Source: Micromonosporaceae bacterium (GTDB taxonomy: Bacteria; Actinomycetota; Actinomycetes; Mycobacteriales; Micromonosporaceae). Taken from it: a stretch of DNA of 64,000 nucleotides. The stretch spans positions 1-64,000 of the forward strand of contig WHTQ01000012.1 in assembly GCA_009377645.1 (NCBI GenBank), written 5' to 3'. Numbering within the stretch: position 1 is the first letter of the stretch; each line of letters starts with the position of its first letter. This document shows, piece by piece, positions 4,469 to 60,902 of the stretch. Position numbers and translations under genes: made by a program. The notes under the pieces are model-generated. The model was not told the DNA's origin. It saw only the letters and a program-made list of their open reading frames with translations, and made no database searches.

Positions 4469-4501
4469 CTATCGCAGCGCCGTCGCCCGCACCCTGTCGG
4501 T

Positions 4502-8243: not shown

Positions 8244-8263
8244 GCTGACCCGCCGGACCGGCC

Positions 8264-8299
8264 GCCGGGGGACCCGCTGTACCCAGCGGGTCCCCCGGC
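8264..8299 (+). terminator. Strong hairpin terminator after the S8 peptidase gene
   Basis: A perfect 16-base-pair GC-rich stem (GCCGGGGGACCCGCTG paired with its complement) closes on a four-base loop TACC, 20 bases after the peptidase stop codon. There is no U-tract, which is common for actinomycete terminators. Confidence 0.8.
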
Positions 8300-8335
8300 G
8301 CCGGCCCCGGGCTGGCTGCCACCTGACCGGTCGGG

Positions 8336-8560: not shown

Positions 8561-8648
8561 GTCGGTCATGTCGAGAATCGCGCGACGGCCTCTACATACC
8601 TGGTGAGAGGTGCCCATCCGGGCACCGGGATCGGGAGCGGAGAGGATC

Positions 8649-14087: not shown

Positions 14088-14096
14088 GCCGCCACA

Positions 14097-14504: not shown

Positions 14505-14664
14505 GGCCACGACGGTACGACACCCACCTTCGCAGTCAACGAGCAGATGCCAACAGTATCTGGCTGGACATGATCAGTGGGTCGCGGCGGCCGTCCAAGG
14601 GCACCCGGGGCAGCCGAAGTCGTAGGGTCGGGCGGCTTCGTCCGCCAAGCCTTGAACGGGTCGG

Positions 14665-16796: not shown

Positions 16797-16800
16797 CAGC

Positions 16801-17616: not shown

Positions 17617-17964
17617 AGCTCGCCCCGATAGCTCACCAAGGCCTCATGCGGCTCGCTCTGGAAAGCGCCCGTGGCGGCCCAACCCGTAGTCAGGAAGCGG
17701 CGGCCCCCAGCTCTCCGGTTCCAACGAACCTGGGTTGAGCAGGCGCTGCGCCGGTATCCAACGCTGGCCGGTCCGGATCTCGGCCGGGCGGAGGGCTGTC
17801 AAGACGGCTCGGCGGGTGATACATTCCTCACGCTTGATCATCAGCCCGGGGGACCGGATGTAGCGTAACCGTCCACGAACGAGCGGTGACCCCAGCTCGC
17901 GTCGTTGTGGTGCCAGTCGCGCAACCCACGCGCACCCACCGGGCCGGCGGGAAGGAACGTTCGG
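17617..17964. other. Intergenic region with one doubtful small minus-strand frame
   Basis: This 348-base gap lies between the ABC permease and the second S8 peptidase gene. A minus-strand frame at 17644-17841 (65 codons, beginning MIKREECITRRAVLTALRP) has no ribosome-binding site and matches nothing I recognise. GAAGGAAC near 17951 is the peptidase ribosome-binding site. I see no clear promoter. Confidence 0.4.
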
Positions 17965-38100: not shown

Positions 38101-40744
38101 CGACCGGGCCGACTACGACACCGTGGTCGCCGACCTGGCGATGACCGGCGGGGACTGCGACCGGGTGGTGCACGCCTGGGCCGCCGGCGGCGCACCCGCG
38201 GCCGGCGGCGCGGACGCCACCTGGCAGGCCCAGGATCGCGGCTTCTTCAGCCTGCTCAGCCTGGTGCAGGCGCTCGCCGCCGGGCAGTCGGCCGAGCCGG
38301 TGCGGCTGGATCTCCTCAGCCGCGGCTCCTGCGACGTCACCGGGACCGACCTAGTCCGCCCGGAACATGCCACGCTCGCGGGGGTGGCCCGGGTGGTCCC
38401 GCTCGAACTGCCGTGGCTAGCAACACGCCAGCTGGACCTGGACCCGGCCGGCCCGGTCGACTGGTCGCACACCGCCGGCGAGCTGGCCCGCAAGCCGGAG
38501 ACCGACCAGGCCGGCCTCTGCCCGGCCACGGCGCTGCGCGGGCACCGCCGGTGGGTCCAGGAGTACCAGCCGGTCGCCCTGCCGGATCGGGCCAACGCCG
38601 GGCTCCGGGAGAGCGGCGTGTACGTGGTGACGGGCGGGCTCGGCGGTATCGGGATCACGCTGGCCGAGGACCTGGCCTGGCGGGTGCGGGCCCGGGTGGT
38701 GCTGCTGTCCCGATCCGGCCTGCCGCCGCGGGTCGAGTGGGACGAGCACCTGCGGCAGCACGGCGGCACCGGCCGGGTCGGCCGGGCGATCGCGGCGGTC
38801 CGGCGGATCGAGGAGGCCGGCGGCGAGGCGCTGGTGCTCGCCGCGGACGTCACCAGCACCGAAGACCTGCGGCGGGTCCGGCGGGAGACGCTGGCCAGCT
38901 TCGGCGCGATCCACGGCATCGTGCACACGGCCGGCGTGCCCGGCGGCGGGGTGGCGGAGGTCAAGGAGCGGCCGGCGGCGGAGCAGGTGCTGGCGCCCAA
39001 GCTGCTCGGCACGCTGGCGTTGCGGGACGCGTTCGGTGACCTGGACCTGGACGTGGTGCTGCTCTGCTCGTCGGTCACCGCGGTGGCCGGCGGGTTCGGC
39101 CAGGTCGACTACTGCGCGGCCAACGCGTTCCTGGACGCGCACGCCCGCGGGAAGCCCGGCTGGCGGGCGGCGCGGGTGATCGCGGTGGACTGGGGCGGCT
39201 GGCGCGAGGTCGGCATGGCCGCCGAGGTGGCCGCGCCGGACGCGCTACGCGCGCTGCAGGGCGGCGAGCGCGGGCTGCAAGGCAGCGAGTACGCGGTCAC
39301 CCCGATCGACCATCCGTTGGTGGCGCAACGGCACGAGGCCGCCGCGGGGGAGCTGCCGTGGTGCGGTGGCACCGTCTCGGCCGCCACCCACTGGGTGCTC
39401 GACGAGCACCGGATGGCGCCGGTGCCGCTGATGCCCGGCACCGGGTACGTGGAGATCGTGCGCGCGGCCGCCGAGGCGGTGCTGCCGGATCGCGGCGACG
39501 ATCAGGTGATCGAGCTGCGCGACCTGGCGTTCGTGGAGCCGATGCCGGTACCGGATGGAAGCTCGGCCGAGCTGCGGGTGGAGTTCTCGCCGGAGCCGGA
39601 CGGCGCGGACGTGCAGGTGATGAGCGTCGCCGGTGGGCGGGTCGCCACCCACGCCCGGGGCAGCGCCGGGTGGGTCGATCCGGGGCCGGTGCCGGTCGTC
39701 GACCTGGACGAGATCCGCGGCCGCTGCGCCCAGGCCGGCGGGCAGGGCGGCGTGGCGCTGTCCAGCCTGCTCACCTACGGGCCGCACTGGCAGAACCTGC
39801 GAACCTGGTACACCGGCCAGGACGAGGCGCTCGCCCTGCTGGAGGCCAACGATGTGGTCGCCGCGGACCTGCCCCGCTGGGTGCTGCACCCGGGCATCCT
39901 GGACGAGGCGACGTCGTTCGCCCGGTTCAGCGTCGAGGGCCACTATCTGCCGCTGAGCTACGGGCGGGTGGTGGTGCGCGCCCCGATGCCGCGGCGGTTG
40001 TGGAGCCACCTACGGTTCCGGGGTGGCGGCGCCAGCGCGGAGGTGATCGTCGCGGACGTGTCGTTGCTGGACGACTCCGGCCACGAGATCGTCAGCATCA
40101 GCGAGTACGTGCTGCGCCGGATCGATCCCGACACGGTGCTGTCCACAGTGAGCGCGGCGTCGCTGCCCGGCCCCCCGGCGGCGCAGGAAGCCCCCGACCC
40201 GGCGGCCGCCGATCCGGGTCGCGGGATCCGCCCGGCCGACGGTGCCGAGGCCTTCTGCCGGCTGCTGGCCACCCCGCTCGGCCCGCAGGTGGTCGTGACC
40301 TCGGTCCGGCTGCCGGAGTTCCTGGCCGAGGTCGGCGGCGTGAACCAGCAGGCCGTCGAGGGCCTGGCCGGGGCGGGTTCGACCAGCCCGCCTGGCGCGG
40401 GACGGCCCCGGTCGGAGAACTATCTGGCGCCCCGCACCGAGCTGGAGGCCGCCGTCGCCCGGCTGTTCGGGGAGGTGCTCGGTGGCGAGGAGATCGGCGT
40501 GGCGGACGACTTCTTCGACCTCGGCGGCAACTCGCTGGTGGCGGTGCAGCTGATCGCGCTGATCCGCAAGCAGGTGAAGGTGAAGCTGCCGATGCGCAGC
40601 CTGTTCGAGGAGCCGACCGTGGCCGGGGTGGCGGCCCTGATCGAGCAGGCTCGGGACGAGCCGGAGCCGCCGGCCGAGCCGGACCTCGGCGCCACCACCA
40701 TCCGCCGGCAGCCTCGCCGCTCCGACCCTGAGGAGGTCCAGTGA
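35168..40744 (+). CDS. Type I polyketide synthase module, KS-AT-KR-DH-ACP
   Basis: This 1858-residue module adds one two-carbon unit. KS (about 8-430) has Cys180 in NTACSSSL plus EAHGTGT and NVGHL. AT has GHSIGE (Ser630) and HAFHSP, the malonyl-CoA type. KR is at about 1150-1340 (GGLGGIG, Ser in CSSVTAV, Tyr in DYCAANAF). DH is at about 1400-1660, with the histidine motif reading EHRMAPVPLMPG (Gly replaced by Pro) and Asp in HPGILDEA. The carrier is NRPS-like (DLGGNSL, about 1787). KR precedes DH, the reverse of the usual module order. An enoyl or beta-hydroxy intermediate is expected, depending on whether DH works. ATG 35168 overlaps the previous stop; the C-terminus overlaps the MbtH start. 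Confidence 0.92.
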   Translation: MTHSDNLEPIAVIGLACRLPGAADARQFWRNLADGVESVRFFTLDEQRAFGVPESIVSDPNFVPAAAVLDDYDAIDTGFFGMSVREAETRDPQHRLLLELCHTALEDAGCDPGRYPGEIGMYATVGPDVYQWLNIRSNPKAYANAGWLAVMVANHPDYAATLASYKLGLRGPSITMNTACSSSLVAMHMACEALRNGECDMALTGGATIDIPSGHGYLYDEDGITAPDGHCRTFDADAKGTIWGSGGGVVVLKRLSDAVADGDWIRAVVLGNAINNDGDGKVGFSAPSMEGQAAVIAQALGVAGVDPRSITYVEAHGTGTALGDPIEVSALSSVYQRDTADRGWCAIGSVKTNVGHLGQTAGMAAVLKTVLSLEHGQIPPSLHYQQPNPKIDFGENPFYVNASLSKWEANGSPRRAAVSSFGIGGTNAHAILQESPPREPAPAPAPPRPAHLLQVSARTETALAGRLEGLAAHLSEHPELDLADVAHTLRVGRRELPRRAALVAVDTADAAAGLGDAGRLVLGTAGKRAPKLALLFSGQGAQYAGMGAELYRAESVFRDTVDECAELLRTVPGGGELGDLREPMFARGGESDELLRQTSHTQPALFVVEYALARLWQAWGVEPAGMIGHSIGEYVAATLAGVFAPADALRLVATRGRLMQQMPPGSMLAVHLDEAEVRPMLPDGLAVATVNGPGTCVIGGPTSLVEEFAERLGSDGVGATMLRTSHAFHSPMMEPILSEFRDSVAETERSEPRLPFLSNVTGDWITADQATDPSYWARHLREPVRFGDGVATLLADGEWRFVECGPGRQLAGLVRTQLSRDAAAPLPSLPGPRDTASDLATLYRAAGALWTQGVPVVGEALGPRARKVPLPTYPWERRRAWIEPDPDAAGFAAQTSAVSSRGERGGVLPIDEWAWAPTWRQLAPGPTTEPPIARCLAFVDDDTAGLSAALRAQGTEVVEVRPGGEYARTPTGYTVRPADRADYDTVVADLAMTGGDCDRVVHAWAAGGAPAAGGADATWQAQDRGFFSLLSLVQALAAGQSAEPVRLDLLSRGSCDVTGTDLVRPEHATLAGVARVVPLELPWLATRQLDLDPAGPVDWSHTAGELARKPETDQAGLCPATALRGHRRWVQEYQPVALPDRANAGLRESGVYVVTGGLGGIGITLAEDLAWRVRARVVLLSRSGLPPRVEWDEHLRQHGGTGRVGRAIAAVRRIEEAGGEALVLAADVTSTEDLRRVRRETLASFGAIHGIVHTAGVPGGGVAEVKERPAAEQVLAPKLLGTLALRDAFGDLDLDVVLLCSSVTAVAGGFGQVDYCAANAFLDAHARGKPGWRAARVIAVDWGGWREVGMAAEVAAPDALRALQGGERGLQGSEYAVTPIDHPLVAQRHEAAAGELPWCGGTVSAATHWVLDEHRMAPVPLMPGTGYVEIVRAAAEAVLPDRGDDQVIELRDLAFVEPMPVPDGSSAELRVEFSPEPDGADVQVMSVAGGRVATHARGSAGWVDPGPVPVVDLDEIRGRCAQAGGQGGVALSSLLTYGPHWQNLRTWYTGQDEALALLEANDVVAADLPRWVLHPGILDEATSFARFSVEGHYLPLSYGRVVVRAPMPRRLWSHLRFRGGGASAEVIVADVSLLDDSGHEIVSISEYVLRRIDPDTVLSTVSAASLPGPPAAQEAPDPAAADPGRGIRPADGAEAFCRLLATPLGPQVVVTSVRLPEFLAEVGGVNQQAVEGLAGAGSTSPPGAGRPRSENYLAPRTELEAAVARLFGEVLGGEEIGVADDFFDLGGNSLVAVQLIALIRKQVKVKLPMRSLFEEPTVAGVAALIEQARDEPEPPAEPDLGATTIRRQPRRSDPEEVQ

Positions 40745-44233: not shown

Positions 44234-44237
<4 letters not shown>

Positions 44238-47200
44238 CCACTACGCCTGAGCTGTCGTCGTCGGCCACGGTCGGGCAGCTGTCCGAGAGCAAGCGGGAGC
44301 TGCTGCGGCAGCGGCTGCGCCGGACCGGTCCCGCGCAGCCGCGGATCCCGCGCCGCCGGCCGGACGCGGGCGCGCCGCCGGTCTCGTACGCCCAGCAGCG
44401 GCTGTGGTTCATGGAGCAGTTCGCCCCCGGGACCGGGGCGTACACGGTCCCGCTCAGCCTGCGGCTGCGCGGCGGCCTGGACCCCGACGCGCTGGCCCGT
44501 TCGCTGGACGCGGTGCTGGCCCGGCACGAGTGCCTGCGGACCCGGTTCGAGACCACCGACCAGGGGGCTGTCCGGATCGTGATCAGCGAGTCGGCGTCCG
44601 CGCCGCCGGTGCGGATCGTGGACCTCGCCGGGGACGCCACCTCGCTGCCGGAGCGGGTGGACCGGGCGCGCGAGCTGATCTCCGACGAGATCGCGCGCCC
44701 GTTCGACCTGCGGCAGGGGCCGCTGCTGCGCGCCGTGCTGGTGCGGCTGGACCCGGACGACCACGTGTTGCTGGTCGCCACCCACCACATCGTCAGCGAT
44801 GGTTGGTCGACCGATGTTCTCGCCGACGAGCTGCTCGCGCTCTACGAGTCGTTCGCCCAGGGCGAGCACCCGGCGCTGCCGGAGCTACCGGTGCAGTACG
44901 GCGACTACGCGGCCTGGCAGCGGGAGCGGCTGGCGGCCGGGCGGCTCGACGCGGCGCGGGAGTACTGGCGCCGCCAGCTCGCCGGCCTCCCGCCACTGGA
45001 GCTGCCGATCGACCGTCCGAGGGGCGCGGAGCAGACCTTCGCCGGCCAGTCCCACCGGTTCCGGCTGGAGCGGCCGTTGGTCGACGCGCTCCAGCGGCTG
45101 GCCGGTTCGGCCGGCGCCACCCTCCACATGGCACTGCTGGCGGCGTTCCAGGTGCTGCTGTCCCGGCACACCGGAGCGACCGACTTCGCGGTCGGGTCAC
45201 CGGTGGCCGGCCGCCCGCTGCCGGAGCTGGAACGGCTGATCGGGTTCTTCGTGAACATGCTGCCGATCCGGGCCGACCTGGCCGACGACCCCAGCTTCCT
45301 CGACCTGCTCACCCGGGTCCGGGACACCGCCCTGGACGCCTGGGCATACCAGGACCTGCCGTTCCAGCAGCTGGTCCAGGAGCTCGACGTGGCCCGGGAG
45401 GCCAGCCAGTCGCCGGTGTTCCAGACCATGCTGGTGATGCACGACTACCTGGACGGCCAGTCCGCGGCCCGGCAGCGACGGGCCGGCTCGCTGGTCGCGG
45501 TCAGGTTCCCGTTCGAGCTCCGGGCGACCCGGTACGACCTGGAGCTGTACGCCTCGCTGTCGCCGGACGGGCTGGAGTGCGTGTTCGTCCACAACCGCGA
45601 CCTGTTCGCGCCGGAGCGGATCGAGCGGATGACCGGGCACCTGGTGACGCTGCTGTCCTCGGCAGTGGCGCGCCCGGAGACGAGAGTGTCGCAACTGGAC
45701 ATGCTGACCGCGTCGGAGCTGGCCGACCTGGCGCGCTGGAACGACACCGCGCAGGAGCTGGGTGAGCCGGACTGCCTGCACCGGTTGGTCTTCGCGCAGG
45801 TCCGGCAGCGCCCGGAGGCGGTCGCCGTGCGGGACGCCCGGGCCGCGCTGACCTACCGCGAGCTGGGGCAGCGGTCCCGGCGGCTGGCGGCCGAGCTGGC
45901 GGCGGCCGGCGTGGCCCCCGGCGAGCTGGTCGCGGTGGTGATGGATCGCGGGGCCGAGCAGGTGGTGGCGGCGCTGGCGGTCCAGCTGGCCGGCGCGGCG
46001 TACCTGCCGGTGGATCCGGACTTTCCCGAGCAGCGGCGCCGGCAGTTGCTGGCCCTGGGCCGGTGCCGGATCGCCCTCACCCAGCCGTGGCTGGCCGACC
46101 GGTTGACCTGGCCGGACGGCGTCACCACGCTGGCGGTTGCCGACGACTCACCCGGCGAGCCGCCGCCGGACCTGGCGGATCCGGCTACTCCGGACGATCT
46201 CGCGTACGTCCTGTTCACGTCGGGTTCCACCGGTGAGCCGAAGGGCGTCATGATCCATCATCGAGGCGCGGTCAACACGGTGCGGGACACCAACCAGCGC
46301 TTCGGGGTGGGGTCCGCCGACCGGGCGCTGTCGGTGTCCGCGTTGAGCTTCGACATCTCCGTACAGGACATCTTCGGTACGCTCGCGGCGGGCGGCACGC
46401 TGGTGCTGCCGGAACCGGCCGCCGCGAAGGAACCCGCCGCCTGGGCGCGGTGGATAAGCCAGCAGCGGGTCACCGTGTGGGCCTCGGCGCCGGCGCTGCT
46501 GGAGCTGCTGGTCGAGCACGCGGAGGCCGACGGCACGGACCTCGGCTCGCTGCGGCTGGTGCTGCTCTCCGGAGACTGGATCCCGCTGGACCTCCCGGAC
46601 CGGATCCGGGCGCTGGCCCCCGGCGTCACGGTGGTCAGCCTCGGCGGCGCCACCGAGGTCTCGATCTGGTCCTGCTACTACCAGGTCGGCGAGGTGGATC
46701 CGGGGTGGCGGTCGATCCCGTACGGCCGGCCGCTGGCCAACCAGACCTTCCACGTGCTCGACCAGCACGATCGCCCGGTCCCGGTCGGGGTCACCGGGCA
46801 GCTGCACATCGGGGGAGTGGGCGTCGGCCGGGGCTACTGGCGGGACCCGGAGCGCACCGCCGCCGGCTTCTTCCTGCACCCGGACACCGGCGAGCGGCTG
46901 TACCGCACCGGTGACCTGGGACGCTACTGGCCGGACGGCGTGATCGAGATTCTCGGGCGGGCCGACTTCCAGGTGAAGGTCCGCGGCTACCGGATCGAGC
47001 TGGGGGAGATCGAGGCGCAGCTGGCCGGCTGTCCCGGAGTCGCCGAGTGCGTGGTCACGGTGCGCCGCGAGGAGGGCGAGCCGGTGCTGGTCGGGTATGT
47101 GGTGCCGAGCGACGGCGCGGCGCCGGCCGGCCCGGACCTGCGGGTCCGGCTGGCGCAGAGCCTGCCGGCGTACATGGTGCCCAGCCGCTACCTGACGCTG

Positions 47201-49849
47201 CCCCGGCTGCCGCTCAACGACCACGGCAAGCTGGACCGCAGCCGGCTGCCGGCGCCGGCGGTCGCGCCCGGCCCGGCGCGGGAGCTGGCCGCGCCCGGGA
47301 CCGCCACCGAGCGGGTGGTCGCCGAGATCTGGAGCGAGGTGCTCGGCGGGGCCGCGGTCGGGCTCGACGACAACTTCTTCGACCTGGGCGGCCACTCCCT
47401 GACCGCGATCCAGGCGGTGACCCGGCTGCGCCGGGCGCTGGCCGGCGACGGGGTCCCGGCGTTCGGCGTCTCCACCCTGTTCCGGCACCCCACCGTGCGG
47501 GAGCTGGCCGCGCTGATCGACCGGCCGCCGGCCGAGCCGGCACCCCGCCGGATCCTGCACGAGCTGACGCCGCCGGAGCGGGCGGGCACCCGTACCGTCA
47601 GCTATGTCTGTGTCCCGTACGGGGGCGGGCAGCCGATGGTGTACCAGCCGCTGGCCGACGCCCTGCCGGACGACTGCTCGCTGTACGCGGTGGCGATCCC
47701 GGGGCACGACCCGTCGCTGCCGGAGGAGACCGCCGAGCCGATCGACCAGATCGCCCGGCAGTGCGCCGCCGAGATCGCGCAGGACGTGGACGGCCCGTTG
47801 GTGATCTACGGCCACTGCGGCATCGGCGCCGCGATCGCGGTGGGGACGGCCCGCCGGCTGGAGGCCGCCGGCCGGGAGCTGGTGGCGGTGTGCTTGGGTG
47901 GGGTCTTCCCGTTCGCCCGCCCCACCGGCCGGATCGCCGGGCGGCTCGCGGCACTGGTCCGGTTCGACCGGCTGGCCGGCAACCGGGCGCACGAGAACCG
48001 CCTCCGCTCGATGGGTGCCGAAGTGGACGGGCTCGAGCCGGACCAGGTCAAGTTCATGATCAGCAGCGTGCGGCGGGACCAGGACGTCTCGGAGGACTAC
48101 TTCACCGAGCTGTTCGACGAGCAGCCGCACCAGCTCCGGGCGCCGATCCTCGCGGTGGTCGGCGAACGCGACCCGCTGACCGACTACTACCAGGAGCGGT
48201 ACCGCGAGTGGCACTTCCTGACCGGTACGACCGGGCTGGTGATCCTGGACGAGGCCGGCCACTACTTCCTGCGGTACCGGGCGGACGAGCTGGCCCAGAT
48301 CCTGACCCGGACCCCGCCGGCGATCGCCGCCGGGACCGCGCCGAGCCTGAGCCGGGCCGCCCGGGGGCCGGCCGCGAGCTGGTGGCTGCAGGAGTTGTCC
48401 GACCGCGGCACCAGCGCCGGTCCGGCCGGCACCGGTCCGACTGGGGCCGAGCCGGCCGGCGCCGAGCCGGCGGCGCCGGAGCCGAGCCTGCGGCGGTTCC
48501 TGGCGGTGGCGCTCAGCCAGCTGGTGTCGTTCACCGGGACGGCGCTGACCGACTTCGCGCTCCCGATCTGGATCTACCTGACCACCGGCTCGCTGGCCCA
48601 GTTCGCGGTCTTCGTGATGCTGGCGATCGTGCCCGGCGTGTTGACCGCGCCGCTGATCGGGGCGCTGGTGGACCGGTCCAGCCGGCGGAACATGATGATC
48701 GTGGGCAACTGCGCCGGCGGGTTCACGATGCTCGGGCTGGGACTCCTGGTGTGGACCGGGAACCTGCAGATCTGGCACACCTACCCGCTGGTCGCCATGC
48801 TGTCGGTCGCGTTGATGTTCCACCGGCTCGCGTACACGGCGGCGGTCCCGCAGCTGGTGCCGAAGCAGTACCTGGGGCACGCGAACGGGGTGGTGCAGCT
48901 CGCCAACGGGATCGCCCAGTTCATCGCGCCGCTGGCTGCGGTGGCGCTGCTGTCGGTGATCGGGCTGTCCGGAATCCTGATCTTCGACGTGGTCACGTTC
49001 GTGGTGGCGATCACCGCGATCCTGCTGATCCGGTTCCCGCGGACGATGGCCCACACCTCCCGGGAGCCGCTGGCCACCGAGATCGCCGAGGGGTTCCGGC
49101 TGTTGCTGGGCAACCCCAGCTTCCGGGCGGCGCTCGTCTACTTCGCCCTGCTCAACATCCTGCTCGCGCCGCTGCTGATGTCGCTGCTACCGATCTCGCT
49201 CTCGTTCGGGACGCTGTCCACCGCCGGGACGGTCGCCTTCATCGGTGGCGGCGGTGCCGCGCTCGGCGGTCTGGTGGTGGCGCTGTGGGGCGGCCCGGCA
49301 AGGCGCCGGATGCGGGGGATGCTGGCCGTCTCGTTGCTGCTCGGCGTCTTCGGGTTGGTCACCGGCCTGCAGCCGTCGGTGCTGGTGGTGGGGCTGGGCG
49401 CGTTCGGCCTGTGGGGCGCGCTGTCGGTGGCGAACGGCATCTACCTGACGATCATCCATGTCAAGCTGCCGCACCGCCTTCACGGCCGGGTGATCGCGCT
49501 GAACCAGGCGGTGGCCTGGTCCACGCTGCCGCTCGGGTTCGCGGTGGTGGCGCCGCTGGGGGAGGGGCTGCTGGAGCCGCTGATGGCCACGGATGGGGCG
49601 CTCGCCCCGAGCCTGGGCGCGGTGATCGGCACCGGCCCGGGTCGCGGCCTGGCGCTGCTGTACGTCCTGCTCGGTCTGGCGATCCTCGGGCTGGTGCTGG
49701 TGGCGATGCGCACCGGCCGGCTGGCCAGGTTCGACGACGAGGTTCCGGATGCGGACCCGGACGACCTGGTCGGAGCGCGGGTGGTGCAGCAGCGGGTCGC
49801 CGCCGTGACCGGTGGGCCGGTGCCGGACCACCATGGACAACGCCGATGA
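44234..49849 (+). CDS. NRPS fused to thioesterase and MFS exporter, C-A-PCP-TE-MFS
   Basis: This 1871-residue protein combines chain release with export. Domains are: C (about 45-475; intact THHIVSDG), A (about 510-1005), PCP (GGHSL, about 1055), TE (about 1110-1380), and a membrane segment from about 1417 to 1830 with 10-12 helices of the EntS-like MFS type (FALPIWIYLTTGSLAQFAVF; LVDRSSRRNM). The A pocket reads D-I-Q-A-L-S-L-I-W-K and the domain has the GGATE and LSGDWIPL motifs of the cysteine-type clade (DLYNLSLIWK), but positions 2-4 differ. The TE nucleophile elbow is YGHCGIG: Cys1195 replaces Ser, with Asp1313 and His1343 completing a triad. The linker is rich in Gly/Pro/Ala. Reading is continuous, with no frameshift. 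Confidence 0.92.
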
Positions 49850-52800: not shown

Positions 52801-52983
52801 CGGATCGGGGTGGCCGACGACTTCTTCGAGCTTGGTGGGCACTCGCTGCTGGCGATGCAGCTGGTGGGTCGGCTCCGGGAACGGTTCGGGGTGGAGCTTC
52901 CGCTGCGCCGCTGCTTCGAGATCACCACCATCGCAGACCATGCCCTGGAGGTCCTCGGCCTGCTGATGGAGACCTCACAGTGA
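49846..52983 (+). CDS. Nonribosomal peptide synthetase module, C-A(Ser)-PCP
   Basis: This 1045-residue module has C (about 8-450; ICDHTVFDG, first His of HHxxxDG replaced by Asp but the catalytic second His kept), A (about 460-950; TSGSTGRPKG, LYGPTEAA, LPSGK) and PCP (GGHSLLAM, Ser about 1001). The pocket reads D-V-W-H-I-S-L-I-D-K, almost identical to the serine code DVWHLSLIDK. It has no terminal thioesterase, although it is the last gene of the operon, so its product must pass to a partner earlier in gene order. ATG 49846 overlaps the previous stop (ATGA). The 3' end overlaps the convergent LLM gene by nine bases. Confidence 0.92.
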   Translation: MSAPTPDAFPVASGQERMWFLACLEPELAVYNVNLWLPLPTGCAPEQARRALARLVARHEPLRTSFSMRDGAVLQLVHGSVPVTVEETDLRPLPATEREPEFARIARADAARPFTLDQAPLWRARLVRLTDQELRLVWICDHTVFDGSSSDIFVTELLECCAALRERRAPRLAELAIQYADYAVWQRERLTTQRVATELAYWRKELTGLPRDLGLPTDRPRPPVRGYRGEVHQFALAEELTSQVEEQARPLGGTSFMVLLAGFKALLSRWAGHPDIFVGCPMAGRPLPELAPLIGMFVNAVVLRTDLGGDPSFREAVRRVRATLLESLEHQELPFERIVEDLQPARDLSRPPLYQVAFNLVPSDTRGQIGNGTVKVDLALDLNLRDGRLHGRLEYATDLFDTATAERLAGAYQILLDAALRDPDLPISRLPMLPPAQRTRILALGRGPRVEPPSPAMLPEQLRAQAARTPDATAVVSESGQLSYRQLYARADRLAQRLRRLGAGPEVPVAVAAERSAELVVAVVAVLQAGAVLAPLDPDYPTDRLAFQLADSGAAVLLTQSRLRDTLPEPDCPVLLLDEPDPPDGTEVKPAPAPRPDNAAYLLYTSGSTGRPKGVLTSHRSLANRLDWMQRRFQLDAGDAVLHKTSVSFDVSLWELCWPLVTGARLVLARPGGQRDPGYLRHAIIRSEVTTIHFVPSMLEAFLAADGVERCRSLRRVICSGEELTHGVADGCCTRLPGAELHNLYGPTEAAIDVSAWACRPETGSGGVPIGWPVHNTQLHVLDRWLEPVPEGFPGELHIGGVQLARGYHGRPARTAAAFVPNPHGPPGTRLYRTGDLARMRPDGAIEFLGRADTQVKVHGVRVELGEIESALAEHPQVRRAVAAVRDDAPGGRGPVAYVDWAGEPGAAPAQLREVLARRLPATLLPQAFVLTGELPALPSGKVDRGALPSPASDDRTQVAAAYAPPSTPIERELCVIWSELLGRDRIGVADDFFELGGHSLLAMQLVGRLRERFGVELPLRRCFEITTIADHALEVLGLLMETSQ

Positions 52984-54018
52984 TCCGGCCAGCTCCGCGA
53001 TGACCCGCAGCTGGTCCAGCCGCAGCCGCAGCGTGGGCGGCACCAGCCCTACGATCAGCGTGGTCACGCCCGCGTCCCGGTAGGCGGCCAGCCGCTCCCG
53101 TACCCGCTCCGGCGGGCCGCAGACCGTCATCGCGTCGACCAGCTCATCCGGCATCGCCGCCATCGCCTCGCCCTGCCGCCCGGCCAGGAACGCCTCCTGC
53201 ATGGCGGTGGCCTCCCGCGCGAACCCGAGCCGGCCGGCGAGCTGGTTGTGGAAGTTGTGCTGGCGGGAGCCCATGCCGCCCAGGTAGAGCGAGAGCATCG
53301 GGCGCATCATGTCGTACGCGATCTCCAGGTCGTCCTCGACCAGGACCATCACCATCGGGGCGATGTCGAAGCCGTCCAGCGACCGGCCGGACCGGGCCGC
53401 GCCCTCCCGCAGCAGGCTCCGGCACTGCGCCAGGTACTCGGGGGGAACGTTCAGCGGCAGCCAGCCGTCGGCGACCTCGCCGGTCAGCCGGACCGCCTGC
53501 GGTCCCAGGGTGGCGAGGTAGATCGGCAGCTGCTGCTGCACCGGCCCGACCGCGAGCGCCATCTCCCGGCCCTCGCTGTCCGGCAGCGGCACGGTCAGGG
53601 TCGGGCCGTGGTACCGCACTGGCTGGCCGGCCAGCGCCATCCGCACCACGGCGAGGTAGTCCCGGGCGCGCGCCAGCGGCCGGTCGAACCGCAGCCCGTG
53701 CCAACCCTCGACCAGCTGCGGCCCGGAGAACCCCAGGCCGAGCCGGAACCGCCCGCCGGAGATCTGGTCGATGGTGGCGGCGGTCATGGCCGCGGCCACC
53801 GGCCGGCGCGCCGGCATCTGCAGGATCGCGGTGCCCAGCCGGATCCGGCGGGTCTGCCCGGCCAGCCACGCCATCAGGCTGGCCGGGTCGGTGCCGTACG
53901 TCTCGGCCGCCCAGGCCGAGTGGTATCCGAACCGCTCGGCCTCCCGTACCAGTGTCAGGTGCTCGGCCGGGCTGAGCCCGGCCGTGCCCCAGTAGCTCAG
54001 GCTGTATCCCAGTCGCAC
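52975..54018 (-). CDS. LLM-class F420-dependent oxidoreductase
   Basis: This 347-residue luciferase-like TIM-barrel protein opens GYSLSYWGTAGLSPAEHLTL, then has SAWAAETYGTDP and IDQISGGRFRLGLG, the usual LLM signature for coenzyme F420-dependent oxidoreductases. It has no monooxygenase-specific features that I can identify. GTG 54018 follows GGAGG. It is the last gene of the leftward operon and ends nine bases inside the convergent NRPS gene. It is likely a tailoring enzyme acting on the peptide or its precursor, possibly oxidising or reducing an amino or hydroxy position. Confidence 0.88.
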   Translation of the reverse strand: MRLGYSLSYWGTAGLSPAEHLTLVREAERFGYHSAWAAETYGTDPASLMAWLAGQTRRIRLGTAILQMPARRPVAAAMTAATIDQISGGRFRLGLGFSGPQLVEGWHGLRFDRPLARARDYLAVVRMALAGQPVRYHGPTLTVPLPDSEGREMALAVGPVQQQLPIYLATLGPQAVRLTGEVADGWLPLNVPPEYLAQCRSLLREGAARSGRSLDGFDIAPMVMVLVEDDLEIAYDMMRPMLSLYLGGMGSRQHNFHNQLAGRLGFAREATAMQEAFLAGRQGEAMAAMPDELVDAMTVCGPPERVRERLAAYRDAGVTTLIVGLVPPTLRLRLDQLRVIAELAGSL

Positions 54019-54035: not shown

Positions 54036-54794
54036 TCAGTCGGTGAGCGCCTCGCCGATCGCCGCGGCCAGCTCGGCTGGCGCGTCCTCCACCAGCCAGT
54101 GTGAGGCGTCGATCTCCCGGAGGACCGGCCGCGGCCGGGTCTGGCGACGCCAGCCCAGCAGGCCACCGCGGGTCAGCGAGCTGTCGTGCGTGCCGTGCAG
54201 CACCGTGATCGGCGTCCCGAACGGCGGTCCCGGGACGTGCCGGTATCCGGCCTGCAGGGCGAAATCGGCCCGCAGCGCCGGTTCCAGCACCGGCCGGAGC
54301 TCCGCCCGGTCGGCCAGCTCCTGCGGCACGCCACCGAAACCGACCAGCCGCTCCCAGAACAGCGGGGACGGCAGCAGGTGCAGCCGGCGGGGCGGGGCCG
54401 CCACGTCGGGCGCCGCCGCCGAGCCCACCAGCAGCCGGGCCGCCGGCCGGTCCAGCTCGTGCAGCCGCCGGCACACCAGGTACGCGAGCAGCGCGCCGCT
54501 GCAGTAGCCGAACAGGGCGTACGGCGACCGGACGGCTATCGGAAGGGCCGCGGCCAGCTCCGCGACCAGCGGGCCGAGCTCGGTGCGGGGCGGCTCGGCC
54601 AGCCTGGCCTGCCGGCCGGGGAGGTTCACCGACCACGGCTCGATGCCGGGCGGCAGCAGCGGGGTGAGCGGGGCGAGCGAGGCCGGGCCGCCGCCGGCGT
54701 GCGGGAACCCCACCAGCCGCACCCGGGGCGGAGCGGCGGCCGCGGCTTCCTCCGCTTCCTCCGCGGGGCGTAGCGGTACGAACCATTCCGTCAC
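54036..54794 (-). CDS. Type II thioesterase with Cys nucleophile
   Basis: This 252-residue alpha/beta hydrolase of the NRPS/PKS editing type has the early GFPHAGGGPASLAPL motif. The nucleophile elbow GYCSG (Cys98) stands where GHSMG is normal; Asp204 is in HGTHDSS and His232 in DASHW. Type II thioesterases free carrier domains from wrong or stalled acyl groups. The Cys form may instead transfer or cyclise. It sits 17 bases upstream of the LLM gene and overlaps the preceding KS-AT-NRPS stop by four bases. It is the second type II-like thioesterase of the cluster, the other being fused to the PPTase. Confidence 0.88.
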   Translation of the reverse strand: MTEWFVPLRPAEEAEEAAAAAPPRVRLVGFPHAGGGPASLAPLTPLLPPGIEPWSVNLPGRQARLAEPPRTELGPLVAELAAALPIAVRSPYALFGYCSGALLAYLVCRRLHELDRPAARLLVGSAAAPDVAAPPRRLHLLPSPLFWERLVGFGGVPQELADRAELRPVLEPALRADFALQAGYRHVPGPPFGTPITVLHGTHDSSLTRGGLLGWRRQTRPRPVLREIDASHWLVEDAPAELAAAIGEALTD

Positions 54795-57700
54795 GGGTCA
54801 CCGCCCGGCTGCTGCTGCGGTGACAGGTGCGCGGCCAGCTCGGCCGGGGTGGGGTACGCGAAGACCACGCTCACCGGTGCCGGGCGCCCGGTTACCTCCG
54901 CGATCCGGCCCACCAGCCGGGCGGCGAGGATCGAGTGCCCGCCGTTGAGGAAGAAGTTGTCGTGCTCGCCGAGCCGGGGCCGGCGCAACGCCTCCCGCCA
55001 CAGCCGGGTCAACGCCTCGGTCAGCTCCGGGTCGCCAGCCGCTGGCTCCGGCTCCACCGGCCAGGTCGGGTCCGGGTCCGGGTCGACCGCTGGCAGCGCG
55101 CGGTGGTCGATCTTCCCGTTCGGGGTGGTGGGCAGCCGGTCCAGCACGACGATCCCGGACGGAACCGCGGCACCGGGCAGCCGGTCCCGCGCGTGCCGCC
55201 ACACCTCCTCCCGCAGCCGGCCCGGGTCCTGCCCGCCGGACCGGGGCTCCACAAAGGCCACCAGCCGCCCGTCGGTCTGCGGGTCGCCGTCCAGCCGCAC
55301 CGCCGCCAGCGCCACGTCCGGGTGCTCGTGCAGCACGCCCTCGACCTCGCCGAGCTCGATCCGATGACCGCGCAGCTTCACCTGCCGGTCGTGGCGGCCG
55401 AACAGCTCCAGCCCGCCGTCGTAGCGCAGCCGGGCGACGTCCCCGGTGCGGTAGAACCGCCCGTACCGCGGGTGCTCGCCGAACCGGGCGGCGGTCAGCT
55501 CGGCGCGTCGCAGGTAGCCGGTGCTCACGCCGTCGCCGGCGAGGCACAGCTCGCCCGGCACCCCGGGCGGCAGCTCCTGCCCGTCCGGGTCGGTCACGAA
55601 CACCCGGGTGTTGGCGATCGGCGCGCCGACCGGCACCGGGTCCTCGGGATCGTGGTCGAGCTCGGCCGCCGTCGACCAGATCGTGGTCTCGGTCGGACCA
55701 TACACATTGAACAACCGGCCGCCGTGCCGGCGGAGCTGCCGGGCCAGCGCGGCGGACATCGGCTCGCCCCCGCACAGCAGGGTGCGGCCGGCCAGCTCAC
55801 CGTCCGCCTCGGGGAGGAGCATCCGCCACGCGGTGGGTGTCGCCTGCACAGTGGACACGTCGTGCTCGCGTACCAGGTCCAGGAGCGCTCGGGGCCGCAG
55901 CGACGCCTGGTCTGGTGCGACCACCGCCCGCCCGCCGTTCACCAGCGGCAGCAACAGCTCCAGTGCGGAGATGTCGAATGTGGTGGTCGTGGACCAGAGC
56001 ACGGCGCCGGCGGCACCGGACGGCAGCAGCTCGGTGAAGCCGCACACCAGGTTGAGCAGGCTTCGGTGGGACACCACCACACCCTTGGGCGCTCCGGTCG
56101 AGCCGGAGGTGTAGCTGACGTACGCGGGACTGTCCGGGTCGGGGGCGGCGCCGTCCAGCAGCTGTCCCGGAGCGGTCCGGTCCGGGTGCTCGGGGATGTC
56201 CGTCAGCACCAGCGCCGCTGCGGCATCGTCGACCTGGTAGGCCAGCCGCGCCTCGGGCTGGTCCGGGTCCAGCGGCAGGTAGCAGGCACCCGCCGCCCAG
56301 GTGCCGAGCACCGCGGCCGCCGCGCCGGCCGAGCGGCCCAAGGCGAGCGCGACCACCTGGCCGGGTTGCACGCCACGATCCCGCAGCAGGTCGCGTACGG
56401 CGATCGCCCGGTAGATCAGGTCCTGATAGCTCGATGCCTGCTCGCCGTCCACCACGGCGGTGGCCGCCGGGGTGGCCTGCGCCTGGGCCGCGATCCGCTC
56501 CGGTACGGTGCTCGGCGTGCCCCACCGCCGCCGGGTGTGGTTCACCCGCTGCCACGCCGCTTGGTCCGCAGTGGAGCCGAACGGCAGGCTGGACACCGGG
56601 CGGTCCGGCTCGGCGGCGGCCCGCTCCAGCAGCGCCTGCATCCGCGCCACGAACGCCTCGATCTCCGCCTCGTGGTGCACCTCGGTGCTGTGCCAGCACC
56701 GCAGCGTCAACCGGTCCGGCTCGGGCACCGCGATGCACTGGAGGTCCAGCCGGCTGCGGTCGAAGAGGTCCTCGAGGTACTCGGGGACCTCGCCGCAGAT
56801 CCGGATCTTCTCGTCGCTCCACGGCCGGTAGTTGAACATGTGGCGGAACAGCGGCACCCGCCAGCCGGTCGTGCCGTGCCCCCGCTCCGTGATCACTCGC
56901 TCGACCGTGGCGTCGGCGTGCTCGACCCCGTTGAGGAATGCCTCGCCGACCCGGTGCGCCAGGTCCCGGAAGCCGGCCCGCGGGTCCACCCGGATCCGCA
57001 GCGGCAGCGTGCTCACGCCGTACCCCACGTGGTTCTCAGTGGCCGGCCGGCGCGTCCCCACCGGCACCCCGATCACCAGGTCCGGCCCGGCACCGTGCCG
57101 CAGCAGCGTGAGACAGAAGGCGCTCATCAGCACCAGGTTGTCGGTGGTGCGCAGCTCCCGGCGCAGCGCCCGCATCGCCTGCTGTGCTGGCTCGGCCATC
57201 TGCCAGCTACAGGTGTGGCCGGCGAAGGTCGGCCGCGCCGGCGCCGGATGGCTGCCCGGCAGCACCATCGCCTCCGGCTGCGCACCTCGCAGGTGATCCA
57301 GCCAGTACCGGATCGCCTCCGGCGAAGGCTCGGGCTCGGCTAGCAGCGGCGCCACCGTGGCGAGCTGGTCGGGGATCCGCCCGGATGCCGTGATGCCGTC
57401 GTAGATCTGGCCCAGCTCTTCGACCAGAATCTGCACGGATGCCGCATCGATGACGATGTGGTGAGCCGCCAGGCAGACCACGCTCCCGCCGTCCGGCAAG
57501 CTGAAATGACCCGCCCGGAACAGGAAGTCCCGGTGCAGGTCGAACGGCCGGTGCAGGAACTCCTGCAGGTCGGGGATCAGTTGCTCGGGCGTGGTGGTGC
57601 GGGTCTGGATCGGCAGCTCCGCGTCCGCGCCGGCGGTGAGGTGCCGCACCGGAGTGCCGTCGATCTCCGGGAACCGCAGCCGGAGGGCGGGGTGCCGGCG

Positions 57701-60094
57701 CAGCAGCTGGTTCACCGCGGTCTGCAGCGGCCACCACCGCAGCGGCCGGGCCGGGCGGAACGCGACCCCGATGTTGGACACGCCGCTGTCCGGCGCCAGC
57801 TGGTCGAGCACCCAGAAGGCGTGCTCGGTGCGGCCGAGCGGCCGGGGCGGCTCCGCCGCCGGCGGCAGGCCTTCGATCGTCGCCGCGCTGGTGAGCTTCG
57901 CGGGCGGAGCGCTGTCCGGTTGCCGGTCCGGAGCGCTCGGTGCGGCGGGCCCGCGCGCCGGCACCACCCAGTGCCGTCGCCGCCGATACGGGTACCCGGG
58001 CAGCGGCACCCGCTGCAGCGGGTGATCGGGCTCCAACCGCTCCCAGTCGACGGGCGCGCCGGACGCCCAGAGCCGGGCGAGCGTGGTCAACAGGTGCCGT
58101 TCGTCCTCATCGGAGGTCGCGGCGGGACCGGGACCCAGCTCCAGCCGTAGCCGGCCATCGGCCACCGACCCGATCGGGACCTCGGGTGGGGACAGGACCG
58201 CCCCGGCCGCCGCCCGCTGGCCCTGGGTGAGCAGCCGGGCGGCGGTGTCGAGGTCGAGCGCCTCCGCCACCACGGCGGCGGCGATCTCGCCGACCCCGGC
58301 ACCGAGCACGGCCGCCGGACGTACCCCCCACGAACGCCAGGCGACGGCCAGCGCGTACTCGGCGGTGAACACCAGCTCGGCGGCCGCGTCGCCGGTGGCG
58401 CGACCGGCGATCCACCGCTCGTACAGGTCCACGCCGCGGCGTTCGAACGCTTCCAGACAGAGGTCCGCGGCCTCGGTGAAGGCCGGTTGCGTCCCGTACA
58501 GGCCGATCGGCACACGCTGCCCCGCCACGAGGTCGGGGAAGCTGAAGACCACCTCCGCCTGCCGCGGGGCCGGATGGTCGGCGGCGATGACGCCGGGTGC
58601 GGACAGCGCGGCGGCGGCCTCGGCGGCGCTGGCGCACACCGCGGCCCGCCGCACCAGATGCGCCGTCCGGCCCTGCCGCAGCGTGGCGGCGGCGTCCGCG
58701 AACCGGCTCGGGTCGGCGGTGGCGAAGTATCGCGCGAGCGCCGCCGCCGCGGCGTCGGCCGCCGCTGGCTGCCGGCCGGACCACACCACGATCCGCGGGC
58801 GGGCGCTGGCGCCGACCGGCTCTGGCCGCACGCCATCCGCGGCATCATCGACGACGAGCAACGTGTTGGCGCCGCCCGGGCCGACCGCGTGCACCGCCGC
58901 CCGCCGCGGGCTGCCCGCCGTGAGCGGCCACGGGGATGGATCCGTGGCCACCCGGAACGGGGTCGCCGCCAGGTTCAGCCCGGGGTGCGGCGTGGCCACG
59001 TTGAGCGTTGCCGGCAGGTGTTCGTGCTGCAGGGCGAGCACGGTCTTCAGCAGGCCGGCCACCCCGGCCGCCGCGGCCAGGTGGCCGACGTTCGACTTGA
59101 CCGAGCCGATCGGCACGCTGCCCGGGGGCGGGTCCGCCGCGCCAGCGAGCCGGAACCCGCGGGCCAGCGCGTCGACCTCCCGAGCGTCGACGGGTCCGGT
59201 CGCCGCGCCGTCGGCCTCGACGTACCCGAAGTCCTGTGGGTCGCAGCCGGCGAACGCGATCGCCCCGGCGATCGCCGAGGCCCAGCCGCCGCCGGCCCCC
59301 GGATGTCCGGCGGCACTGGCCCGGATCACAGCCCGAACGCAGTCGCCATCGGCGATGGCTTCGCCGAGTCGCTTGAGGACCAGCACGCCGGCGCCGGTGC
59401 CGGGCACGGACCCGGCCGCCGCTGCGTCGAACGGTCGGCTGTGCCCATCCGGGGGCAGCCGGGCACCGGGCGTCCAGCGGTAGCCGTGGCCGTATGGAAG
59501 CTCGACGTGCACGCCGCCGGCCAGGGCGACATCGCAGTCACCCGCGATCAGTGACTGGGTCGCCAGATGGACCGCGAGCAGCGAGCACGAGCCCACCGTG
59601 ACGGACGGCCCGCGCAGATCCAGCCGGCTGGAGGTGAACGCCGCAAGATCCGGCTCGGCCCGCGCGTGCTCGGCGGCTTCGAACGCGTCGGTCGGCAGAT
59701 GGAGCTCCCGGTAGCGGCCCGGGCGGGCGGCGCCGAACACGGCGGCCCCGTCGCCGATCGCGGTGAGGTCGTGGCCAGCGTCCTCGACCGCCGAGTGGGC
59801 GGTCTCCAGAAACATCCGCAACTGCGGGTCGCAGGCGTCCGCGGCGGCTGCCGACATACCGAAGAACTCGGCGTCGAAGGTGTCGACGCCCGGGGTCAGC
59901 AACGCCGCCCGTACGTAGTCGGCGTCTGCCAGGTCGTCGGCGGTCACCCCGGCAGCCAGCAGCTCCTCATCGGACGGTACGGTCACCGCCTCCCGCCCCT
60001 GCCGGAGCAGCTCCCAGAACCCCTGGACGTCCGCCGATGCCGGAAACCGGCAGGCGGAGCCGATAACCGCGATCGGCTCCGGCTCCACCGTCAC
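54791..60094 (-). CDS. Vestigial KS-AT fused to an NRPS module (KS0-AT0-C-A(Gly)-PCP)
   Basis: This 1767-residue protein begins like a PKS (EPIAVIGSACRFPASADVQG) but its active sites are changed. The KS cysteine region reads TVGSCSLL (Cys170) with three residues missing compared with DTACSSSL. The first KS His is lost (EADGAATG for EAHGTGT), though NVGHL remains. The AT is shortened and GHSxGE has become GAGVGE, with no Ser. After it come a C domain (AHHIVIDA, about 790-1240), an A domain (TSGSTGAPKG, VYGPTETT, PNGK) with pocket D-I-L-Q-L-G-V-I-W-K, a clear glycine code, and a PCP (GGHSI, about 1720). GTG 60094 overlaps the ACP stop. It probably condenses an acyl chain from the ACP with glycine. 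Confidence 0.9.
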   Translation of the reverse strand: MTVEPEPIAVIGSACRFPASADVQGFWELLRQGREAVTVPSDEELLAAGVTADDLADADYVRAALLTPGVDTFDAEFFGMSAAAADACDPQLRMFLETAHSAVEDAGHDLTAIGDGAAVFGAARPGRYRELHLPTDAFEAAEHARAEPDLAAFTSSRLDLRGPSVTVGSCSLLAVHLATQSLIAGDCDVALAGGVHVELPYGHGYRWTPGARLPPDGHSRPFDAAAAGSVPGTGAGVLVLKRLGEAIADGDCVRAVIRASAAGHPGAGGGWASAIAGAIAFAGCDPQDFGYVEADGAATGPVDAREVDALARGFRLAGAADPPPGSVPIGSVKSNVGHLAAAAGVAGLLKTVLALQHEHLPATLNVATPHPGLNLAATPFRVATDPSPWPLTAGSPRRAAVHAVGPGGANTLLVVDDAADGVRPEPVGASARPRIVVWSGRQPAAADAAAAALARYFATADPSRFADAAATLRQGRTAHLVRRAAVCASAAEAAAALSAPGVIAADHPAPRQAEVVFSFPDLVAGQRVPIGLYGTQPAFTEAADLCLEAFERRGVDLYERWIAGRATGDAAAELVFTAEYALAVAWRSWGVRPAAVLGAGVGEIAAAVVAEALDLDTAARLLTQGQRAAAGAVLSPPEVPIGSVADGRLRLELGPGPAATSDEDERHLLTTLARLWASGAPVDWERLEPDHPLQRVPLPGYPYRRRRHWVVPARGPAAPSAPDRQPDSAPPAKLTSAATIEGLPPAAEPPRPLGRTEHAFWVLDQLAPDSGVSNIGVAFRPARPLRWWPLQTAVNQLLRRHPALRLRFPEIDGTPVRHLTAGADAELPIQTRTTTPEQLIPDLQEFLHRPFDLHRDFLFRAGHFSLPDGGSVVCLAAHHIVIDAASVQILVEELGQIYDGITASGRIPDQLATVAPLLAEPEPSPEAIRYWLDHLRGAQPEAMVLPGSHPAPARPTFAGHTCSWQMAEPAQQAMRALRRELRTTDNLVLMSAFCLTLLRHGAGPDLVIGVPVGTRRPATENHVGYGVSTLPLRIRVDPRAGFRDLAHRVGEAFLNGVEHADATVERVITERGHGTTGWRVPLFRHMFNYRPWSDEKIRICGEVPEYLEDLFDRSRLDLQCIAVPEPDRLTLRCWHSTEVHHEAEIEAFVARMQALLERAAAEPDRPVSSLPFGSTADQAAWQRVNHTRRRWGTPSTVPERIAAQAQATPAATAVVDGEQASSYQDLIYRAIAVRDLLRDRGVQPGQVVALALGRSAGAAAAVLGTWAAGACYLPLDPDQPEARLAYQVDDAAAALVLTDIPEHPDRTAPGQLLDGAAPDPDSPAYVSYTSGSTGAPKGVVVSHRSLLNLVCGFTELLPSGAAGAVLWSTTTTFDISALELLLPLVNGGRAVVAPDQASLRPRALLDLVREHDVSTVQATPTAWRMLLPEADGELAGRTLLCGGEPMSAALARQLRRHGGRLFNVYGPTETTIWSTAAELDHDPEDPVPVGAPIANTRVFVTDPDGQELPPGVPGELCLAGDGVSTGYLRRAELTAARFGEHPRYGRFYRTGDVARLRYDGGLELFGRHDRQVKLRGHRIELGEVEGVLHEHPDVALAAVRLDGDPQTDGRLVAFVEPRSGGQDPGRLREEVWRHARDRLPGAAVPSGIVVLDRLPTTPNGKIDHRALPAVDPDPDPTWPVEPEPAAGDPELTEALTRLWREALRRPRLGEHDNFFLNGGHSILAARLVGRIAEVTGRPAPVSVVFAYPTPAELAAHLSPQQQPGGDP

Positions 60095-60438
60095 CGAGTC
60101 TCCCCGTCGCGCCGCAGCCGGGCGCGGATCTCCCGACGTGAGCTGGCGGAGCGCCGGGTCCGATCGGACGCGGCGTCCCGGGGCACCTGGCTGGTCGGCC
60201 CCGTCGCGTCGACCACGAGAGCCGCCGCCCCGCGCAGATTCGGGTGGCTGAACAGCCCCACTTCCGGTATCTGGGTGCCGAGCCGCTTGGAGATCAGCGC
60301 GTGTAGCTTGGTCACGGAGAGCGAGTTCAGCCCGGCCTCGAAGAAGTTCTCGTCCAGGTCGATGCGACGACCCAGCAGCTCCTTCACGATCTCGTTGATC
60401 TGATCGGCGACAGCCTCGGTCGTCAGCTCCTGGCCCAT
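60091..60438 (-). CDS. Free acyl carrier protein
   Basis: This 115-residue discrete carrier protein has the phosphopantetheine motif FFEAGLNSLSVTKLH near residue 40 (DSL-type motif, here NSL). A basic, unstructured tail (SRREIRARLRR) follows, possibly a docking region for the next protein. Its stop overlaps the GTG of the KS0-AT0-NRPS gene, so the two are translated together. It is the natural candidate to carry the starter acyl or aminoacyl group for that protein. No adenylate-forming loader for it is seen in the window. Confidence 0.85.
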   Translation of the reverse strand: MGQELTTEAVADQINEIVKELLGRRIDLDENFFEAGLNSLSVTKLHALISKRLGTQIPEVGLFSHPNLRGAAALVVDATGPTSQVPRDAASDRTRRSASSRREIRARLRRDGETR

Positions 60439-60560: not shown

Positions 60561-60902
60561 CTACTTCCGGCCTGTCGGGCGGGCGCGGACCTCGGCCGCC
60601 TCGGGCACTCCGAGCCGGGTGAAGCGGTCGAGCGCCTCCTGCCAGTGGTGGTTGGCGCGGTCCCGGCGGCCGAGCGCCTGGTGGGCCTGCCCGAGGCCGG
60701 AGTATGCCCGGGCCTGCTCGTACCGGAACCCGAGCTTGCTGGCCAGCGCCAGCGCCCGCTGGTGGTAGGTGAGCGCATCGCGGACGCGGCCAGCTGCCCG
60801 CAACGCGTACCCAAGGTTGTTGAGGGTCTCCGCCTCGCCCGCCCGGGCCCCGCTGCGGCGGTGGAGCGCGAGCGCCTGCCGCAGCTGCTCAAGCGCCGGG
60901 CA
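60561..60902 (-). pseudogene. C-terminal TPR fragment of an AfsR/SARP-like regulator gene
   Basis: The minus strand reads consecutive tetratricopeptide repeats: LRQALALHRRSGARAGEAET, then LNNLGYALRAAGRV and RALALASKLGFRYEQARAYS. This is the pattern at the C-terminus of AfsR/NB-ARC-TPR regulators, which are usually 600-1000 residues. A stop in frame (60903-60905) and an abrupt junction with unrelated plus-strand sequence cut it off. Only about 113 codons remain. Confidence 0.7.

Follow-up and report, generated by a model that had tools for sequence, protein, structure and literature searches.

Why should a polyketide synthase (PKS) ketosynthase (KS) and acyltransferase (AT) that have lost their catalytic residues stay fused, in one reading frame, to a seemingly intact nonribosomal peptide synthetase (NRPS) module? 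The question is raised by a gene on the minus strand (54791-60094; 1767 residues, GTG start) of a 64,000-nucleotide stretch of a Micromonosporaceae bacterium (GCA_009377645.1, contig WHTQ01000012.1, positions 1 to 64,000), the whole of which is referred to here as the window. The gene encodes KS0-AT0-C-A-PCP, with C, A and PCP standing for condensation, adenylation and peptidyl carrier protein domains and the zero marking the catalytically deficient ones. The initial annotation regarded the didomain as vestigial and proposed that it serves as a scaffold, receiving an acyl group from the free acyl carrier protein (ACP) and presenting it to the C domain. At the level of the sequences compared, the following are established: loss of the KS and AT catalytic residues, a single origin of KS0, its shrinkage, purifying selection on the remnant, and a constant ACP partner with a tail of the type found on donors to KS proteins. 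We give roughly even chances to the reading that the dead KS-AT has been reused as a non-catalytic docking platform for the free ACP, the chain passing straight to the C domain.

Catalytic loss in the KS-AT didomain

KS0 spans residues 1-430 (58805-60094), lacks an intact catalytic set, and scores 163 bits against Pfam ketoacyl-synt and 80.5 bits against Ketoacyl-synt_C. Its predicted structure has the thiolase fold of an elongating type I KS; the Cys in a TACSSS loop and the two catalytic His residues of such an enzyme are not all present. The loop is shortened to TVGSCSLL (residues 166-173; 59576-59599), the first catalytic His is replaced by Asp in EADGAAT (residues 293-299; 59198-59218), and the second is kept in SNVGHL (residues 334-339). 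A KS-AT linker domain follows (residues 432-498; 58601-58801; Pfam KAsynt_C_assoc, CurL-like and RhiE-like), which is also kept in the shrunken orthologues described below. AT0 is truncated (residues 499-663; 58106-58600): its elbow GAGVGE (residues 598-603; 58286-58303) lacks the Ser of GHSxGE, and its C-terminal half is gone, including the HAFHS region with the catalytic His. The Acyl_transf_1 match of 27.8 bits falls below the cut-off of 32.7 and covers only positions 18-114 of the 319 in the profile. The post-AT linker (residues 664-714; 57953-58105) leads into the C domain (56510-57847; HHIVIDA; Pfam Condensation, 189.5 bits), the A domain (55085-56509; AMP-binding, 259.2 bits) and the PCP (54794-55054; GGHS; PP-binding, 46.5 bits). 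The A-domain code, taken from alignment columns, is D-I-L-Q-L-G-V-I-W-K, which we take to specify glycine. By its sequence, C-A-PCP is a glycine NRPS module; HHxxxD, identical code residues and the PCP Ser are found in all 19 orthologues, the window included. The initial annotation had described these changes in KS and AT and this intact module correctly.

The orthologues come from a scan of named genomes that gave 349 relatives, of which the best 80 were kept as loci (numbered with L) and 24 were examined for the gene. It is present and fused in one frame in 18 of these 24, across nine named actinobacterial genera. Four carry a full-length dead KS, namely Micromonospora echinofusca (L020), Virgisporangium (L021), Actinomadura (L022) and Rhizohabitans (L023); the other 14 are shrunken.

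For comparison, KSs were collected from 201 genomes related to that of the window, 129 of which had a match at 1e-60 or better, mostly to ordinary KS-AT genes; stretches were taken from part of them. The 47 KS rows compared include some loci fetched twice and, as an in-cluster control, the intact KS-AT-KR-DH-ACP protein of the window (35168-40744, plus strand; KR, ketoreductase; DH, dehydratase). The ACS loop motif is missing from six rows, which represent five genes: the window and L020-L023. In each of them the loop is three residues shorter than in intact KSs. The loop Cys is missing from L022 and displaced in the other four; in the order window, L020, L021, L022 and L023, the first His position holds D, D, H, H and C, and the residues at the second His position are H, H, D, D and H. 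The loop is gone altogether from the 14 shrunken orthologues (ten by alignment, four read directly). In a tree of 38 KS rows, from which nine duplicates or fragments had been dropped, the five KS0 genes form one clade (support 100/100), which points firmly to a single origin. Sequencing error as the source of the KS changes is ruled out, since the orthologues share the loop deletion and the catalytic changes.

These comparisons also bear on whether KS0 could take the acyl group on its displaced Cys and pass it onward. A Cys does lie near the loop in the window, L020, L021 and L023. Against such transacylation, the catalytic His residues are lost variably, L022 has no Cys, and the loop is missing from the 14 shrunken orthologues, so that we consider it very improbable. 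Covalent reception of the acyl group by KS0, as the initial annotation had worded it, is unsupported because no nucleophile is conserved. Nor does KS0 resemble a KSQ decarboxylase, as the loop has no Gln in any of the five genes.

Loss of the AT Ser is wider than the KS0 family, occurring on other tree branches in L105/L038, L111 (gene at 6511) and L162/L145. In L105 (14539-19455), L111 (6511-11529) and L162 (2474-7003), the KS keeps its Cys, and the AT behind it is truncated and lacks Ser; L162 has Asn at the first His position. Judged by their residues, these three genes are further stages of the same kind of loss.

Shrinkage, selection and predicted folds

The 14 shrunken orthologues, from Streptosporangium, Planobispora, Nonomuraea, Microtetraspora and Bailinhaonella, are still fused in frame. 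Their stub is 327-491 residues long, as against 704-784 in the full-length forms, and 108-120 KS residues are left, but 162 in Bailinhaonella L035; roughly three quarters of the KS length is thus gone in some relatives. Among the shrunken rows listed, the remnant blocks correspond approximately to window residues 1-22, 98-109, 152-159, 174-198 and 227-257, and the C-terminal half of the KS is gone. Of four shrunken stubs scanned with Pfam, three give no KS match and L035 gives one of 23.9 bits. When profiles built from ten remnants and from ten intact KSs are compared, they match with a probability of 98.4 over 52 columns, from the active-site helix through the following strand-helix-strand.

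A further search covered 297 genomes of one family. Twenty-one had a match at E 1e-10 or better, some of them marked by low scores as ordinary KS-AT linkers, and the search yielded two more shrunken orthologues (L142 and L143) and one broken copy (L144). In L143 (genome G324, about 4280-4520), collagen-like PPGPGG repeats replace the deleted C-terminal half of the KS. In L144 (genome G359, 5440-7600), stub and C domain are out of frame with each other and the A domain is largely missing; the ACP retains its tail.

As to whether the shrinkage happened once, the trees differ. In the stub tree, the ten shrunken rows used group together (88/87). In the C-A-PCP trees, which held 11 of 16 shrunken rows, L035 falls outside the others, with an AU p of 0.034 against one clade. 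The aligned ends of the deletions are nearly identical across shrunken rows, a likeness that gap placement in one alignment could cause.

Selection was measured as omega, the ratio of nonsynonymous to synonymous change, by plain counting over six pooled species pairs of the shrunken clade; two of the pairs have a short inner branch in common. The KS remnant had an omega of 0.26 (0.17-0.40), the KS-AT linker one of 0.17 (0.10-0.27) and the post-AT linker, counted on residues 664-704, one of 0.20 (0.10-0.39); C and A gave 0.34 and 0.29, and the AT remnant 0.51 (0.38-0.71). Weighting by base composition gave 0.24 for the KS remnant, 0.16 for the linker, 0.19 for the post-AT linker, 0.29 for C, 0.25 for A and 0.48 for the AT remnant. 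By these counts, the KS remnant and both linkers are under purifying selection and not drifting freely. In two full-length pairs, with wide intervals and a synonymous divergence (dS) of 0.5-0.8 that is probably underestimated, omega was 0.42 for KS0, 0.54 for the KS-AT linker, 0.52 for the post-AT linker, 0.61 for AT0, 0.45 for C and 0.41 for A; KS0 is constrained there as much as C.

Both forms are also predicted to fold. The model of window residues 1-1195 has a mean predicted local distance difference test (pLDDT) score of 90.0 (41 alignment rows), and its KS-AT part matches 50 listed KS or KS-AT entries with Z scores of 48.2-55.4 in VIA-align; ClbI (8xju) gives Z 55.4 with a root mean square deviation (rmsd) of 2.8 over 681 aligned residues. 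For the shrunken stub plus C of L029, the mean pLDDT is 83.1 (26 rows). This model builds the KS remnant from five main strands and short helices; the linker domain and the post-AT helix come next, and block means run from 70-92 in the KS remnant down to 42 in the AT remnant. The matches listed for this model are all C domains, the C domain filling the list, and nothing follows from them for the stub.

One rival reading is that KS-AT is a pure vestige, functionless, kept open only because C-A-PCP is translated behind it, and pruned by in-frame deletions. Several observations fit: stub lengths vary as widely as 327-784 residues; sequence divergence is faster in KS0 than in C or A, and far faster than in the cluster's intact KS (window and Virgisporangium share 56% identity in KS0 and 85% in the intact KS); the AT remnant is relaxed; and there are the repeats of L143 and the broken copy of L144. 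Against them stand omega values for the KS remnant, linker and post-AT linker of the shrunken clade that are as low as those of C and A, a remnant that is predicted to fold, and an ACP tail that is kept. Neutral decay as the full answer is disfavoured because omega is low for the KS remnant and the linkers, and we consider a pure vestige unlikely. The word vestigial, fair for the AT remnant, is thus too weak a description of the KS and the linkers.

The free carrier protein and the proposed docking platform

Directly upstream of KS0 lies the gene for a free ACP of 115 residues (60091-60438, minus strand; PP-binding, 52.3 bits), with its Ser in GLNSL and a basic C-terminal tail, SRREIRARLRRDGETR. 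Its stop overlaps the start of the KS0 gene by 4 nucleotides, an overlap found in 17 of the 19 orthologues, the exceptions being L022 and L023. An ACP with its Ser stands directly upstream in all 19, and in L142-L144 as well, and the C-terminal motif RR(D/E)hRx(R/Q)hR, where h is I, V, L or A, is shared by 21 of the 22 ACPs.

Within the loci compared, we took genes whose immediate downstream neighbour encodes a protein starting with KS or with C, and compared the last 30 residues of their products; many rows in both sets are homologous to each other, so that p-values drawn from them do not represent independent cases. Donors to KS-first proteins have a mean net charge of +5.8 (n = 26, five of them from the KS0 family; the other 21 average +5.6), as against -1.9 for donors to C-first proteins (n = 23, one of which, an MbtH gene at 40741 of the window, was wrongly included). 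A loose form of the tail motif occurs in 14 of the 26 and in none of the 23. The 17 ACPs of the shrunken family have a mean tail charge of +6.7 (range 6 to 8); ACPs that face a KS remnant of about 110 residues therefore still bear the tail of a KS donor. According to PMC6117356, other C-terminal docking regions facing NRPS subunits carry a run of negative residues.

Related loci show the parts of this arrangement unfused. In Hamadaea (L034, L060) and in genomes G023 (L111) and G466 (L145), a basic-tailed ACP directly precedes a KS gene, and the glycine-type C-A-PCP is a separate protein. The KS behind the basic-tailed ACP is intact in Hamadaea, where the linker that precedes C forms the start of the C-A-PCP protein. 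In ordinary KS proteins of this kind, no more than a few residues lie ahead of the KS.

As the simplest account, we propose the following course of events. The ancestral pair would have been a free ACP and a KS-AT module, which lost its KR-DH-ACP part, its front being fused to a glycine C-A-PCP. After fusion, KS and AT would have lost catalysis, and the KS core with the KS-AT and post-AT linkers would have persisted as a non-catalytic docking platform. The upstream ACP may bind this platform through its basic C-terminal tail and deliver its presumed acyl chain straight to the C domain fused behind the platform, where the chain would be joined to glycine.

A number of points weigh against this reading, in addition to those that favour a vestige: the relaxed AT remnant, the fast divergence of KS0, and the repeats in L143, which a mere spacer would permit. 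In the two full-length pairs, the linkers are no more constrained than C, and single species pairs scatter, with omega for the KS remnant ranging from 0.07 to 0.57 in close pairs. Relatives of the C-A-PCP protein in L034, L038, L060 and L103 have no stub at all. The L022 ACP lacks the tail motif, though it is still basic there, and a KS-first donor in L103 has a tail charge of -1. The omega of 0.21 for the ACP tail rests on 5 and 9 changes. On the acceptor side, acidity extends to C and A, and in the two Streptosporangium remnants the net charge reaches only -3.

The same selection and the same predicted folds would equally suit a structural role other than ACP docking, such as aiding folding, mediating dimerisation, or recruiting the type II thioesterase or the LLM-class oxidoreductase. 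Genes for both enzymes follow in the window, L101 (the same locus as L021), L142 and L143, and in L144 with a shorter LLM gene; the gene starts look alike by eye in L020, L022, L023, L029 and L032. Such a role leaves the KS-donor-type tail of the ACP unexplained, and we hold it to be rather improbable. Overall, the scaffold interpretation of the initial annotation is partly supported: its non-catalytic side is strengthened by the selection on the remnant, the predicted folds and the ACP tail, and covalent reception of the acyl group drops out.

More tentatively, and at somewhat less than even chances, we suggest that the family represents a new class of inter-subunit docking, in which a PKS didomain, pared down to about half a thiolase fold plus the KS-AT and post-AT linkers, may have become an acceptor docking domain for C that is recognised by the basic tail of an ACP. 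If so, the docking site for basic tails would lie in the N-terminal half and linker of the KS in ordinary KS proteins of this kind. Docking of a donor, whether NRPS or ACP, to a KS without an N-terminal docking helix is little described in the literature surveyed. A naturally occurring series, in which the KS passes from intact to dead to pared-down and the donor tail stays constant, points to where such tails may bind and offers small constructs for testing tail binding. It would also yield a natural element for linking carriers to condensation domains.

Cluster surroundings and likeness to known systems

Downstream of the KS0 gene, on the same strand, lie the genes for the type II thioesterase (54039-54794; Pfam Thioesterase, 87.6 bits) and the LLM-class oxidoreductase of F420-dependent type (52975-54018; TIGR03559, 345.4 bits, cut-off 335). 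The opposite strand encodes A-PCP-C-A-PCP, the intact KS-AT-KR-DH-ACP, MbtH, C-A-PCP, C-A-PCP-TE-MFS and C-A-PCP (TE, thioesterase; MFS, major facilitator superfamily). In the MFS-containing protein (44234-49849, plus strand), C-A-PCP-TE is followed in frame by a major facilitator domain (MFS_1, 72.7 bits), an NRPS joined to what is likely its exporter, barring a lost stop codon. A thioesterase is fused to a phosphopantetheinyl transferase domain at 28708-30057 (plus strand). A gene of the serine hydroxymethyltransferase family lies near the cluster at 26979-28340 (minus strand) and possibly supplies glycine or a hydroxyamino acid. Upstream of the ACP in Virgisporangium is a regulator-like protein of 936 residues; a TPR piece in the window (60609-60896, minus strand) is similar to its residues 772-867, and between 60400 and 64000 nothing else of that protein turned up at E 0.01 apart from overlapping TPR matches. 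In L103, three genes near the glycine-type C-A-PCP and the type II thioesterase (6594-8936, 12828-15413 and 16347-18656) look by eye like what we presume to be LanB-type dehydratases.

In the literature on the cluster type, docking, partial ATs, ClbK and charged tails, we found no description of the whole arrangement, and no shrunken or vestigial KS before an NRPS was found in a literature that mostly excluded subscription papers. Parts of it do have counterparts. Non-elongating KS0 domains of trans-AT PKSs have lost their catalytic His, a likeness to KS0 here. Unlike in those domains, the Cys loop is not kept: the Cys for transacylation is displaced, there is none in L022, and the shrunken forms have no loop. 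An intact cis AT with GHSIGE, at 35168-40744, likewise sets the cluster apart from a trans-AT system.

OzmQ KS1 of the oxazolomycin synthase, which we take to have a partial AT, is the first Foldseek match of the window KS-AT model (4oqj; VIA-align Z 53.9, rmsd 2.5, 652 aligned residues), and the sequence match spans the KS and the short AT (residues 4-732). Unlike in OzmQ KS1, the catalytic residues of the KS are lost here as well, C-A-PCP follows directly, and relatives lack most of the KS. In ClbK of the colibactin pathway, the KS is presumably active, unlike KS0, and we know of no shrunken forms. The KS-AT-like part of this PKS-NRPS hybrid (8cjh) is similar to the window model in structure (Z 49.4, rmsd 5.3, 643 aligned residues).

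PMC12895367 describes the KS' of PfaB, from polyunsaturated fatty acid (PUFA) synthases, as a shorter thiolase-like fold without the Cys-His-His triad and proposes it as a scaffold with a possible part in positioning ACP. KS0 likewise has a predicted thiolase-like fold without the full triad. PfaB itself retains an active AT and is not an NRPS; in the window protein, a C domain comes after a dead AT. No N-terminal beta-hairpin docking domain is among the ten Pfam families found in the window protein, which represent KS, linker, AT, C, A and PCP. Docking of a short linear motif (SLiM) to a beta-hairpin domain, as presented in PMC9113145 and PMC13324335, nonetheless shares the basic layout of a short C-terminal carrier tail and an extra domain before C. 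It differs in that here a dead KS-AT precedes C and the carrier tail is basic, NRPS-facing tails being described as acidic in PMC6117356.

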